Below, in pieces: positions 3,419 to 11,644 of a DNA stretch of 24,549 nucleotides (positions within the stretch are counted from its first letter, which is position 1; every line of letters starts with the position of its first letter). The notes below the pieces were generated by a model. It was not told the DNA's origin, did not search any database, and saw only the letters and a program-made list of their open reading frames with translations. Origin of the DNA: a virus; the IMG/VR virus record IMGVR_UViG_3300024256_000055, positions 1 to 24,549 of that record. One strand, written 5' to 3'. Position numbers and translations under genes: made by a program.

Positions 3419-3786
3419 TGACGAATCAATATTTCAATCACCAGGAATTAATTAAGCGGTTCAAACTTTTGGCAATGAAAGAAATTCCAAACTTGAGAAT
3501 ATTCGACCGAACCGTTGGACTCTTTTACGCAAAAAGAATTAACGGCGGAATTATTAATTATGTTCCAATGAAAATTAACAGTAACGGAATGGCCGACGCT
3601 TACGGAATATTAAAAACCGACATGGGTTCAATACATTTAGAATTTGAATTTAAAACAGGTAAGGCCGTGCAAACAAAAGAACAAAAGAATTGGGAAAACT
3701 TCATTATTAATATGAATGGTTTCTTCCTGGTAGTAAGAGACGAAGGCCAGGCCGTCAAGCAAATTAAACATTATTTCGGGGTATAA
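3418..3786 (+). CDS. VRR-NUC-like (PD-(D/E)xK) nuclease
   Basis: This 122-residue protein has the core of a VRR-NUC nuclease: GMADAYGIL with D60, then LEFEFKTGK with E77 and K79 forming the ExK pair, followed by Q85/Q89 and W92, then a strand (GFFLVVRDEGQAV). VRR-NUC proteins are standalone nucleases in many phages, often implicated in cleaving branched DNA such as Holliday junctions. Here it overlaps the cytosine methyltransferase stop (TAATG), so the two are co-translated, and a helicase and exonuclease lie upstream. A junction resolvase role in replication/recombination is the most likely reading. Restriction-like activity paired with the methyltransferase is a less likely alternative. Confidence 0.8.
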   Translation: MTNQYFNHQELIKRFKLLAMKEIPNLRIFDRTVGLFYAKRINGGIINYVPMKINSNGMADAYGILKTDMGSIHLEFEFKTGKAVQTKEQKNWENFIINMNGFFLVVRDEGQAVKQIKHYFGV

Positions 3787-4035: not shown

Positions 4036-6594
4036 ATGGACTTTAGTTTTTTAACAAAACTCAATCAAGAGTTATCGGAAAAAATTCCAATATTAGAACC
4101 GATTGTAACAATTACATTCGACGGTTCGGTTAATCGTTTTGATTCAACAAAAAAAGACGACAAAGCAATTTGGGTTTGCATTCATGCGAACGACTTCAAA
4201 GGAAATGTTTATTACAATGCGGTTTACGGAACTTGGCGGCAAGGTGTTCAATACACTTGTTCAAGTTATGACAAATCGGATAGAACCATTGTAACAAAAG
4301 AATTTCGTAAGGCCGAAAAAGAACAAATGGCCCAAACTCAAGAAAAGCTTGAAAAAGAAAAACAAGACAAATATAAACAATGTCGGGACAAATGGACTCC
4401 GTTTTATTTCAACTTGCCCTTGAATGCGCCGGTTCATACTTATTTGAAAGGTAAGAAGTTAAATTCTAACTTTCACGCAAGAGTGGACGGGAAGGACGTC
4501 TTATTTGTCCCGGCTTGGAATGCGGAAGGCCTCTTTGTTGGGGGCCAACGTATTTTTCTTGACCCGGTTTCTGGAAAATTCGAAAAGCGTTATACTTTTG
4601 GAATCGAAAAAGCCGGGTCTTTTTGCCCCTTCGGAGACATTCGAAAAGCTGAATTTATTTATATAGCCGAAGGTTATGCAACCGCCGCTTCCATTTACAT
4701 GGCATTTAAAAATAAAAAGAATATCGCAGTTGTTTGCGTTTGGGACACTTCGAATATTTTACCAGGGGCAAGCGCGGTAAGAAAAATAAATCAAAATTGT
4801 AATTTAGTTTTTGCGGCCGACAAAGATATTCACGCCGACCCAAAATGGCATAATATTGGCGAACGTAAGGCCAAACAAGCGGCAAATAAGTTTTCCAATG
4901 CCGTGGTTAAGACTGTTAAGTTCGACGGCGGAAACGACGCTTGGAGTGACTATAACGACTTACACCAATTCGAAGGTCTTGAACAAGTAGCGAAACAATT
5001 ACACGTTGAGGAAACGGACTTTATTGAAATAATTCCTTTAGGTTTTAACGGCGACAAATATTATTATTTTTCAACTTCCAAAAAGCAAATATTAGAATTT
5101 TCGAAAAGCGACCATAATCAAGGAACGTTTATGTTAAATGCCCCGCCAAAATATTGGGGCGACCGTTACGGTTATGTAATGAATAAAGACGGAGAAAAAA
5201 CAAATAATCCGGATTGGAAGCAAGTTATTTGGAAAATTGGAATTGAGTCGAACAAGGCCGGGATTTTTAACCATTCAAAAATTCGTGGTGTTGGGGCCTG
5301 GGAACAAGACGGCGAAATTATAGTTAATTTGGGCGACAAACTTTATTATAAAGAAGAGTTTTTTCCATTATTTAATAACGGTATTAAGTCGGATTACTTT
5401 TACCAATCAAGTGAATCGGTGGCCCTGGACTTTAATAGGCCGCTTGGTAATTCGGATTGTTTAAAAATTGTCGAAGCCTTCCAAATGTTAAAGTATAAAA
5501 ATAAAAGTGATTACATAATTGTTTTGGGTTGGTTATTTTCGGCCCAGGTCTTCGCATCGTTATCATGGCGACCGCATATTTGGTTTACAGGGGAACGGGG
5601 TTCGGGAAAATCAACAATCTTAGAATATATTTCTAGTATGGTTGATTTTTCGATTATGGTTCAAGGTTCAACGGCGGCCGGAATTCGTCAAAGGTTGGGT
5701 TCGAATGCCGTTCCAATTATTTACGATGAATCGGAACCCGACACGGAAAAGGCCCGCGACCGTATGGCCGAAATTTTAGAAATGGCAAGACAGTCTTCGA
5801 CTCGTTCTAAGTACGAAATTTTAAGAGGGTCGGCCGGCGGAAAAGCAATTTCATATAATACCAATACAACATTTTGCATGGGTTCAATTCAATTGTCAGA
5901 AATGAACGGGGCCGACACTTCCAGGTTCTTCGTAATTGAAATGGCAAATATTAAAGAAGAGTTACACGAAACTTTTATTCGACTAGAAAATGCAATGTCG
6001 GACTCTCAACGCCTTTCAACGGGTCTTTTTGTTCGTGCCGTAAATATGTATGGAAACCATGTTAAAAACATTGAGACGGCGAAACAAGTCATTAAATCGC
6101 ACAAAATCGAAGCAAGGCAAGCCGACCAACTTGCCCCAATTATAGCGGGTTATTTTGCTTATTTCTCAACGGGCGAAATGGACGAAAAATTTGTTCTTGA
6201 TACTATTAACGAAATGGACTTTTCCCATTCCGAATATGTCCAGGCCAATGACGAAAATGAATCGCAAAAATGTCTTGACGATATTTTTGGGCTTCAAATC
6301 CCTGGCCGTGTAATAACAGTTGGGCAAATTGTTGACCGTTATCAATATGAAGTTACGGCCCAGGCGCGGGACGAATACGACCAAATGCTTGGAATAATCG
6401 GATTAAGATATTTCGAACAAGAAAAAGAAATTTTTATTGCAAGTTCAAGTTCTTCTTTAAGAAAACAAATGGAACGTATTTCAAAATTTTCAGACTATAA
6501 GAATATTTTGAAGAGACACGACAATTATAAAGGTTCTAAAAAATGCCGTGTCGGTGGTATGCCTACAAACGGAATAGTCGTTTCAGTGATTTAA
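4036..6594 (+). CDS. Toprim primase-helicase fusion
   Basis: I place the start at the second in-frame ATG (4036), which has AAGGG seven bases upstream; the ATG at 4021 has no SD. The 852-residue product has a charged coiled-coil-like stretch (about 90-125), then a Toprim domain: YIAEGYATA (near 208-216), the acidic AADKD (near 258-262) and a DYNDLH motif (near 305). The C-terminal half is a P-loop ATPase with Walker A GERGSGKST (about 518-526) and Walker B-like IIYDESEP (near 560). This order matches phage primase-helicases that make primers and unwind DNA at the fork. No N-terminal CHC2-type zinc finger is visible. It closes the first rightward block and reads into a convergent hairpin. Confidence 0.88.
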   Translation: MDFSFLTKLNQELSEKIPILEPIVTITFDGSVNRFDSTKKDDKAIWVCIHANDFKGNVYYNAVYGTWRQGVQYTCSSYDKSDRTIVTKEFRKAEKEQMAQTQEKLEKEKQDKYKQCRDKWTPFYFNLPLNAPVHTYLKGKKLNSNFHARVDGKDVLFVPAWNAEGLFVGGQRIFLDPVSGKFEKRYTFGIEKAGSFCPFGDIRKAEFIYIAEGYATAASIYMAFKNKKNIAVVCVWDTSNILPGASAVRKINQNCNLVFAADKDIHADPKWHNIGERKAKQAANKFSNAVVKTVKFDGGNDAWSDYNDLHQFEGLEQVAKQLHVEETDFIEIIPLGFNGDKYYYFSTSKKQILEFSKSDHNQGTFMLNAPPKYWGDRYGYVMNKDGEKTNNPDWKQVIWKIGIESNKAGIFNHSKIRGVGAWEQDGEIIVNLGDKLYYKEEFFPLFNNGIKSDYFYQSSESVALDFNRPLGNSDCLKIVEAFQMLKYKNKSDYIIVLGWLFSAQVFASLSWRPHIWFTGERGSGKSTILEYISSMVDFSIMVQGSTAAGIRQRLGSNAVPIIYDESEPDTEKARDRMAEILEMARQSSTRSKYEILRGSAGGKAISYNTNTTFCMGSIQLSEMNGADTSRFFVIEMANIKEELHETFIRLENAMSDSQRLSTGLFVRAVNMYGNHVKNIETAKQVIKSHKIEARQADQLAPIIAGYFAYFSTGEMDEKFVLDTINEMDFSHSEYVQANDENESQKCLDDIFGLQIPGRVITVGQIVDRYQYEVTAQARDEYDQMLGIIGLRYFEQEKEIFIASSSSSLRKQMERISKFSDYKNILKRHDNYKGSKKCRVGGMPTNGIVVSVI

Positions 6595-10314: not shown

Positions 10315-10414
10315 GCATTTGGTAGTTCGGAATGGCCAGGCCGCAAACTTCGGTTGAGTCGGGAGAGTTTAGGCGACAACAAATGCACGACCCGTTTATG
10401 AGACGGGTTTTTTT
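10315..10414 (+). ncRNA. Candidate structured small RNA, about 100 nt
   Basis: No protein is encoded here on a credible ORF. An 8-bp perfect helix (TGCATTTG 10314-10321 with CAAATGCA 10380-10387) encloses about 58 nt that can form smaller stems, including one closed by a UUCG loop (near 10348-10351). An intrinsic terminator follows directly. A promoter-like pair ends seven bases before the 5' arm. Together these define a compact RNA gene. Two GGA motifs (10329-10331, 10362-10364) are present. The segment at 10362-10370 could pair instead with AAACTCTCC upstream at 10253-10261 if a longer transcript is made. It is not a canonical tRNA or a CsrB-type RNA. Function is unknown. Confidence 0.5.
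10390..10414 (+). terminator. Intrinsic terminator of the candidate small RNA
   Basis: A 6-bp stem (ACCCGT 10390-10395, ACGGGT 10403-10408) with a 7-nt loop is followed by seven T residues. It sits three bases after the helix of the candidate RNA and well upstream of the CsrA-like gene, so it separates the two transcription units. Confidence 0.8.
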
Positions 10415-10426
10415 ATTTCTAAAAAG

Positions 10427-10489
10427 CGTTACAAGATTCAAGTAACGTTTAGTAACGTTACGAGATTTAATAACACTCGCTAACGTTAG
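10427..10489. promoter_or_regulatory. Cluster of GTAAC/TAACGTTA palindromes, operator candidate
   Basis: CGTTAC (10427-10432) is mirrored by GTAACG (10442-10447). GTAACGTTAC (10452-10461) and CTAACGTTAG (10480-10489) are perfect 10-bp palindromes sharing the core TAACGTTA, 28 bp apart. Together they make an array of related dyads about 75-170 bp upstream of the late-arm genes. This is the expected form of a regulator-binding region for the late promoter. Confidence 0.55.
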
Positions 10490-10563: not shown

Positions 10564-10592
10564 TTGCGAAATCGAACAAATTGCAACATACT
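10564..10592 (+). promoter_or_regulatory. Weak putative promoter just upstream of the CsrA-like gene
   Basis: TTGCGA (10564-10569) and CATACT (10587-10592) are 17 bp apart, each matching sigma70 boxes 4/6. The expected transcription start is about 10599, which is the A of the ATG. If used, the mRNA would be leaderless. The boxes are weak and this is tentative. Confidence 0.3.
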
Positions 10593-10598
10593 TAGTAT

Positions 10599-10799
10599 AT
10601 GAAAGGAAAAAACGGAAATTTAATAGTTAACTTACGCGAAGGCGAGGCCGTCACTTTAGACGGGCCAGGAACTATTTTAATTAAGCAATTGCGACGCAAT
10701 AAGGTCGTTGTTATGGTTAATGCAGACAGTGAAACAAATATTGAGTTAAAACGAGAGTCCAAGGAAGTGGGCCCAATTAAAGAAACCGCGAAGGAATAA
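10599..10799 (+). CDS. csrA: CsrA/RsmA-like RNA-binding translational regulator
   Basis: The 66-residue protein aligns with CsrA across its length: LREGEAVTL matches the first strand region (VGE...I), KVVVMVNADSE matches the conserved QVRIGVNAPKE strand, and IELKRES matches the VHREE segment with the RNA-binding arginine (R52 here, R44 in E. coli CsrA). CsrA dimers bind GGA motifs, often in hairpin loops or over SD sites, and control translation or termination. The N-terminus is a few residues longer and the usual LTR is replaced by VNL. No SD lies upstream; AAAGGA and CGGA occur instead within the first six codons. It opens the late arm, followed by a strong terminator and the terminase genes. 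The call is by pattern alignment only. Confidence 0.75.
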   Translation: MKGKNGNLIVNLREGEAVTLDGPGTILIKQLRRNKVVVMVNADSETNIELKRESKEVGPIKETAKE

Positions 10800-10806
10800 C
10801 GCGTTC

Positions 10807-10850
10807 GTGTCGGCCCCGCCCCAGGATTCGGAATAGGGCCGACACTTTTT
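10807..10850 (+). terminator. Strong intrinsic terminator with GGA-bearing loop, between csrA-like and terminase genes
   Basis: A perfect 10-bp GC-rich stem (GTGTCGGCCC 10807-10816, GGGCCGACAC 10836-10845) is followed by five T residues. The 19-nt loop carries two GGA triplets (10824-10826, 10830-10832). It begins eight bases after the CsrA-like stop. Read-through would be needed for transcripts from upstream to reach the terminase gene, unless another promoter exists. The loop motifs suggest it may be a CsrA-type binding site as well as a terminator. Confidence 0.88.
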
Positions 10851-10864
10851 AAAAGTAGGACATT

Positions 10865-11644
10865 ATGACAAAAATCAAAAATAAATCTATTGAAATGGAA
10901 TTCAAGGAAGAACAAATTGCAATCGAAAAAGCGAAACCGGCAAAAAAAGGGCCTGGGCGTCCAAAAGGTTCGACGAACGGAAGCGGCAAGAAAAAGGTTG
11001 CGAGAAAAAAGGTTAAGGCTTCGGAAAAAACGGGCGCAAGAACAAGCCGCCTTAAGCCGGCCGAACGTGAATCGTATCGACAAAAAATTACCGAGTATTT
11101 CGGAGCGTCTAAAATTGACAAGATTCTTGTTAAGGCCAAAAACATAAAAGAATCGGAAGTTCTTATTGTTCAATTAAAAAAGCAAATGGAAGCCGAACTT
11201 GAAGACGAAAAAAGAGACGTCGAAGAGTATTATAAAAAAATTGATGCCGAATATAAAACAGTTGGGCGACCAAAATCAGTATTTAATGAAAAAGAATTAA
11301 AATATTTATGCTCTATTCATTGCACCCTGGAAGAAATTGCCGGGTTCTTTCAAATGAACAAACAAGTATTAAGCCGAAAAATTAAAGAAGAGTACAATAT
11401 TTCATGGACTGAATTTTATGAACGTAATTCCCAGGGTTCTAAGGTTTCGTTAAGGCGTCGCCAAATTCAGGCCGCAATGGAAGGCGATACGCAAATGTTA
11501 AAGTTCCTTGGTAAGAATATGTTAGGCCAAAAGGAAAAAGTCGAGTTCGACGGGGAAGTTAAAGTTAACTCTTGGGTTGACCTTATTACTAATATTGACC
11601 CGGACGCATTGACCGGAAAAGACGGAGACGAAAAAAATGAATAG
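10865..11644 (+). CDS. Terminase small subunit with AT-hook-like N-terminus
   Basis: An AGGA SD precedes the ATG. The 259-residue protein has a long basic N-terminus with an AT-hook core (KKGPGRPKGS, about 28-37) and a second GRPK at about 140. A helix-turn-helix follows (LKYLCSIHCTLEEIAGFFQM, then NKQVLSRKI), and a C-terminal part matches small terminases of this type (RRRQIQAAMEGDTQMLKFLG, then KNMLGQKEKVEF). Small terminase subunits recognise the packaging site and regulate the large subunit. Its position two genes before the large subunit supports the call. The AT-hook region is longer than usual and may help bind AT-rich DNA. Its end overlaps a small ORF. Confidence 0.85.
   Translation: MTKIKNKSIEMEFKEEQIAIEKAKPAKKGPGRPKGSTNGSGKKKVARKKVKASEKTGARTSRLKPAERESYRQKITEYFGASKIDKILVKAKNIKESEVLIVQLKKQMEAELEDEKRDVEEYYKKIDAEYKTVGRPKSVFNEKELKYLCSIHCTLEEIAGFFQMNKQVLSRKIKEEYNISWTEFYERNSQGSKVSLRRRQIQAAMEGDTQMLKFLGKNMLGQKEKVEFDGEVKVNSWVDLITNIDPDALTGKDGDEKNE

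Follow-up and report, generated by a model that had tools for sequence, protein, structure and literature searches.

A divergent csrA-family gene and a possible attenuator hairpin at the head of a phage late operon

The stretch of DNA analysed here (the window) is an IMG/VR virus record of 24.5 kb (24,549 nt). Its plus strand carries genes for portal, capsid, head morphogenesis and tail sheath proteins, and its minus strand holds a divergent block of small genes extending from ~9850 downwards. The plus-strand late block starts at 10599, and its head is formed by the csrA/hairpin/terS locus, with the following features:

10564..10592, plus strand: probable sigma70-like promoter, TTGCGA-N17-CATACT, an aligned block conserved in four phages
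10599..10799, plus strand: CsrA-family gene (66 amino acids, with a six-residue N-terminal extension, MKGKNG), assigned from relatives, a profile and dN/dS
10807..10850, plus strand: U-tailed, attenuator-like terminator hairpin, predicted by folding and with a homologous hairpin in the relatives L001, L008 and L007
10824..10826, plus strand: first GGA of the hairpin loop (CAGGAU), a candidate CsrA site in the 7-nt apical loop of the minimum free energy fold
10830..10832, plus strand: second GGA of the loop, its GG paired with CC in the minimum free energy fold
10858..10860, plus strand: GGA in the terS Shine-Dalgarno sequence, uninformative
10865..11644, plus strand: terS, probable small terminase subunit gene, first of the late operon and upstream of terL in the window, L001, L007, L008, L010 and L012
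11809..13476, plus strand: terL, large terminase subunit gene (phrog_2 terminase large subunit, E 1.8e-29)

The name terS rests on position, and the gene has no above-threshold family match in Pfam, PHROGs or NCBIfam. Four related phages were compared: the window phage, two relatives that carry csrA (L001 and L008) and one from which it is deleted (L007, terL 67–69% identical). Three scans of viral contigs with csrA queries recovered only L001 and L008 as further csrA-bearing relatives, the relatives added by terS and terL scans all lacked the gene, and when 39 relative records were searched for CsrA a single additional hit came up, weak (G018, E 0.011) and remote from terS. Scans of genome contigs with terL found distant relatives only (27–39%). 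No Rfam match was obtained for the window, and at distant terS loci, where folds were judged by eye, no comparable U-tailed hairpin was found directly before terS. Genes for Rrf2-family transcriptional regulators (Pfam Rrf2, 67–70 bits) sit upstream of the csrA/hairpin/terS region in L008 (1001–1420) and L007 (1354–1749).

A divergent member of the CsrA family

The open reading frame at 10599–10799 is present exactly as a sequence-only reading of this DNA had given it. Its assignment to the CsrA family, proposed in the same reading, holds through the relatives: the window protein alone has no match in Pfam, PHROGs or NCBIfam, and the family was therefore assigned from its homologues in L001 (60% identity) and L008 (47%). 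Against the Pfam CsrA family (PF02599) the L008 protein scores 37.5 bits, above the cut-off of 27, and the L001 protein 14.9 bits, below it. At E ≤ 0.1 a profile built from all three members retrieved CsrA/Rsm proteins exclusively, eight PDB chains in number; a phmmer search of the PDB with the window protein returned five sub-threshold rows, three of which are CsrA-family. Among the three csrA genes dN (0.28–0.46) is well below dS (1.0–1.3), which indicates purifying selection. By these sequence comparisons the frame is confirmed as a divergent CsrA-family gene.

Five beta strands, the number in a CsrA monomer, are tentatively predicted for the window protein by a low-confidence AlphaFold model (pLDDT 63), from which Foldseek placed RsmN in the top row as a weak match (E 0.63). 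In VIA, RsmF scored Z 3.5, level with filamin domains; we read the filamin matches of both Foldseek and VIA as reflecting a common beta arrangement. When aligned with Escherichia coli CsrA and Burkholderia phage CsrA, the family residues L2, G9, E10, A36 and R44 (E. coli numbering) are invariant. The window protein differs from E. coli CsrA, to which it is 24% identical, in its N-terminal extension, in the replacement of two RNA-contact residues (R6 by L12 and L4 by V10) and in a two-residue insertion before the equivalent of R44 (R52), around which the alignment is uncertain. L4 and R44 are critical for RNA binding in the family. We rejected an internal csrA start, for which the AAAGGA of the extension would serve as Shine-Dalgarno sequence, since none of the three genes has an ATG, GTG or TTG where CsrA canonically begins; conservation of the N-terminal extension also opposes it.

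Promoter, terminator hairpin and loop GGAs

A promoter-like block (TTGC[GA]N-N17-AATAAT/CATACT) occurs in all four phages and, in the three that carry csrA, ends 6–8 nt before the ATG, with no Shine-Dalgarno sequence. The pattern has 10 matches in ~257 kb of strand, this site in all four phages among them, where shuffled sequences lead one to expect 3.2; a generic sigma70 promoter scan did not list the site at 10564..10592, which falls below its threshold. Judging from the usual distance to a −10 element, the transcript would begin on the csrA ATG or right next to it, which would give a leaderless mRNA. Upstream of this promoter the window holds two tandem copies of AGTAACGTT (10441–10460), a 9-mer that in the three relatives occurs only within the loop of a terminator between terS and terL (L001 ~5105–5150, L008 ~3486–3530, L007 2834–2880). 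That terminator has a nearly invariant loop of ~24 nt, ATGTCRAYAAGTAACGTTGCYA, with GGCCGG and then a T tract behind it; in the window this terminator is missing, and a 56-amino acid open reading frame takes its place. The ~750-nt intergenic region before csrA also contains a second terminator-like hairpin (GACCCGTTTATGAGACGGGTTTTTTT, 10389–10412), which might terminate a small RNA or protect the csrA promoter.

Folding bore out the strong terminator that had been described behind csrA, with a stem of 10 bp (10807–10816/10836–10845), a loop of 19 nt (10817–10835, CGCCCCAGGAUUCGGAAUA) and the U tract UUUUU directly after the stem (10846–10850). The predicted minimum free energy is −22.5 kcal/mol (z −2.7), and two of 200 shuffles were equally stable. 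With its stable G+C-rich stem and immediate U tract, the predicted structure has what is expected of an intrinsic terminator, and homologous U-tailed hairpins (−17 to −22.7 kcal/mol) lie at the same place in all four phages. In the window the U tract ends just 14 nt ahead of the terS ATG, which leaves next to no space for a further promoter; one dedicated to terS would need to lie partly within the hairpin or csrA, and the hairpin is thus placed as an attenuator. The comparison of the phages supports this predicted position, behind the probable late promoter and ahead of terS.

Two GGA triplets, the number previously reported for this loop, lie within its 19 nt in the window. The L001 loop (also 19 nt) has two, that of L008 one and that of L007 none, and in the folds of both the window and L001 the first GGA falls in a 7-nt apical loop. 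Two GGAs arise in 1.4% of shuffles of the window loop, in 2.8% of plus-strand 19-mers of the window and in 7.2% of the G+C-rich ones; at a single locus, two loop GGAs are only mildly unusual. The window loop gains weight from the GGAs in the loops of L001 and L008, although the loop-shuffling probabilities (0.014 for the window, 0.041 for L001 and 0.24 for L008) are not to be multiplied, as the three GGA-bearing loops share ancestry and are not independent. Loop sequence is poorly conserved among the relatives at the csrA–terS hairpin, in contrast to the terS–terL terminator.

In L007 the promoter block is followed by the last csrA codons in frame (STEMVDGKEVAKKLNAL and the stop), then by the hairpin and terS, and a CsrA search of its 45.8-kb record found no other csrA. 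Promoter and hairpin are thus retained where csrA is deleted, and the hairpin does not need CsrA. GGA is present in the loop of all three phages with csrA and absent from the single one without it (n = 3 versus 1), consistent with GGAs being kept only while csrA is present, in the one deletion case available. A 14-codon open reading frame at 1874–1918 of L007 (MVDGKEVAKKLNAL and a stop that lies inside the hairpin stem) comprises almost all that is left of csrA, and could be a remnant of that gene or a leader peptide.

GGAs had also been pointed out at 10858–10860, in the terS Shine-Dalgarno sequence, and in the first csrA codons (10605–10607 and 10614–10616). All three are present and carry no evidential weight. 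A GGA occurs within 20 nt upstream of 12 of the 23 start sites listed for the window (one of which, 21132, is not a start codon, leaving the share at about half either way), so the Shine-Dalgarno motif is at background frequency. The Gly3 and Gly6 codons of the three csrA genes are GGA/GGA, GGA/GGC and GGT/GGA. The background rate and these variable glycine codons led us to reject both sets of motifs as evidence for CsrA control.

How well the loop would suit CsrA is a separate matter. GGA in hairpin loops is bound by CsrA, which prefers small loops and weak stems, is disfavoured by very stable stems and bridges, as one dimer, sites separated by 10 nt or more (PMC7652899). The two GGAs of the window loop are spaced by 3 nt in a strong hairpin, so that binding is possible and, on paper, not favoured; binding of the CsrA-like protein to the terminator loop is a candidate interaction. 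An explanation built on it entirely would have the protein bind the loop GGAs and block or stabilise the terminator, or repress terS translation, with csrA translation irrelevant. It draws on the GGA found in every loop next to csrA and lost with the gene, on the apical position of the first GGA, and on the ability of CsrA to affect transcript elongation (PMC7652899), but the spacing of the two GGAs is too short for a dimer to bridge them, occupancy of the loop need not prevent a 9–10 bp stem from closing, and the Shine-Dalgarno GGA is at background level. We consider this explanation unlikely. We are similarly doubtful of the combined form, a CsrA-based intrinsic-terminator switch for phage timing in which phage CsrA controls the late operon through the loop GGAs behind a leaderless csrA and csrA translation is a second input.

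Translation of csrA as a possible switch

The csrA stop codon lies 7 nt from the hairpin stem in the window, and 7, 8 and 8 nt over the three csrA-bearing phages. At five other terminators of these phages, a small and non-exhaustive set from a simple scan in which the gene end was found, the corresponding distances are 26, 30, 38, 26 and 34 nt. In E. coli the tR2 terminator is almost fully repressed when a translated gene ends several base pairs before it, termination falling from ~90% to under 10% with a stop codon 5 nt upstream (PMC4824070). The short spacing at csrA therefore points to translation coupling, and translation of csrA would itself favour read-through if the E. coli rule holds in the host; the E. 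coli data come from an ordinary ribosome-binding site, as against a predicted leaderless mRNA in an unassigned host here. Such coupling, which the sequence-only reading had not considered, is on our analysis the best reading of the core of the locus.

In this reading a late packaging and structural operon would begin, behind its probable promoter, with csrA as first cistron, and the hairpin behind csrA would act as an attenuator. The leaderless csrA mRNA would be translated at once, and a ribosome close behind RNA polymerase would cover the 5′ arm of the hairpin and allow read-through into terS; with csrA untranslated, the hairpin would form and cut off the late operon. The CsrA-like protein may bind its own transcript at GGA in the terminator loop, and perhaps also near the csrA start codon, and so exert feedback of either sign. 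The gene family, the order promoter, csrA, GGA-loop hairpin and terS (kept in the window, L001 and L008) and the 7–8 nt placement come from the comparison of phages. We put forward the whole, an attenuator of the late operon that responds to csrA translation and receives CsrA feedback through the loop or start codons, as a tentative reading that falls somewhat short of even confidence. Against it weigh the small sample of four related phages, the poorly conserved loop sequence, the persistence of the hairpin in L007, a very stable stem with one GGA partly paired, and the altered RNA-contact residues, although R44 is retained. Of the RNA switch proposed earlier, it keeps the CsrA family, the terminator ahead of terS and behind the probable late promoter, and the loop GGA that tracks csrA; the Shine-Dalgarno and start-codon GGAs drop out as evidence. 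The layout itself suggests, short of proof, a self-built on/off control of the late genes.

It is rather unlikely, in our judgement, that a plain terminator simply ends the csrA transcript, with csrA acting on other phage or host mRNAs, the late genes expressed by leaky read-through or from elsewhere, and the loop GGAs due to chance. Two GGAs do occur in ~1.4–7% of comparable sequences, csrA is known cargo of other phages (PMC9144972, PMC7366521) and the hairpin persists in L007 without an intact csrA; the 14 nt left before the terS ATG, a stop-to-stem spacing that departs from the other terminators of these phages, and a loop GGA that follows the presence of csrA argue the other way. Highly improbable, to our mind, is a hairpin serving as a 3′-UTR decoy or autoregulatory site, at which CsrA, bound to the 3′ end of its own mRNA, would be titrated (that of the phage or of the host) or would determine mRNA stability, with no control over terS: sponges of the CsrB type are built from GGA in hairpin loops (PMC7652899), but each transcript here offers one or two sites only, and all four phages, including the one without an intact csrA, keep the hairpin immediately ahead of terS.

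Relation to known systems

Genes for CsrA are widespread on phages and plasmids, and those of phages have been described before (PMC7366521, PMC9144972); that of phage JC1 has been described as a moron gene (PMC9144972), and the requirement for phage or plasmid csrA still needs loss-of-function tests (PMC7366521). The present locus offers phage CsrA a specific candidate target in cis, a terminator guarding the late genes, and a short construct would then allow a direct test of what purpose a phage CsrA serves. If the tentative reading is true, a CsrA-linked intrinsic terminator would be added to the known CsrA mechanisms. A csrA gene with an intrinsic terminator in cis before terS was not found in the literature searched and may nonetheless have been reported.

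The window gene shares its phage location with the known phage copies of the CsrA/RsmA family (PHROG 5527, 9500 and 8397; Pseudomonas phage F116, Vibrio phages and Burkholderia Lessieviruses). In five Lessieviruses (BcepIL02, BcepMigl, DC1, JC1 and CSP3) csrA lies directly upstream of the major capsid gene, and the gap between them contains a conserved GCGCAGGA(U/G)GUG in a stable hairpin (L068 6195–6292, with the same place in L075–L078) that ends near the capsid gene Shine-Dalgarno sequence. This is a candidate CsrA site in isolated phages; the motif reads AGGAGGUG in three of the five and could also be a ribosome site. As at the present locus, csrA lies in the late structural gene region and a hairpin that bears GGA separates it from the next late gene, but the Lessieviruses are another phage type without close sequence relation to the window phage, and their hairpin lies in the capsid gene leader, where no U-tract terminator was identified.

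Attenuators of the pyrBI type likewise have an intrinsic terminator in front of an operon, a short distance past a stop codon, so that a trailing ribosome would prevent termination (PMC4824070); the leader cistron here is a full regulator gene and not a short peptide, and attenuation is a prediction. At E. coli pgaA, CsrA affects transcription termination through RNA structure, as is proposed here, but there termination is Rho-dependent and in the leader, whereas the candidate described here is an intrinsic terminator behind the csrA gene.
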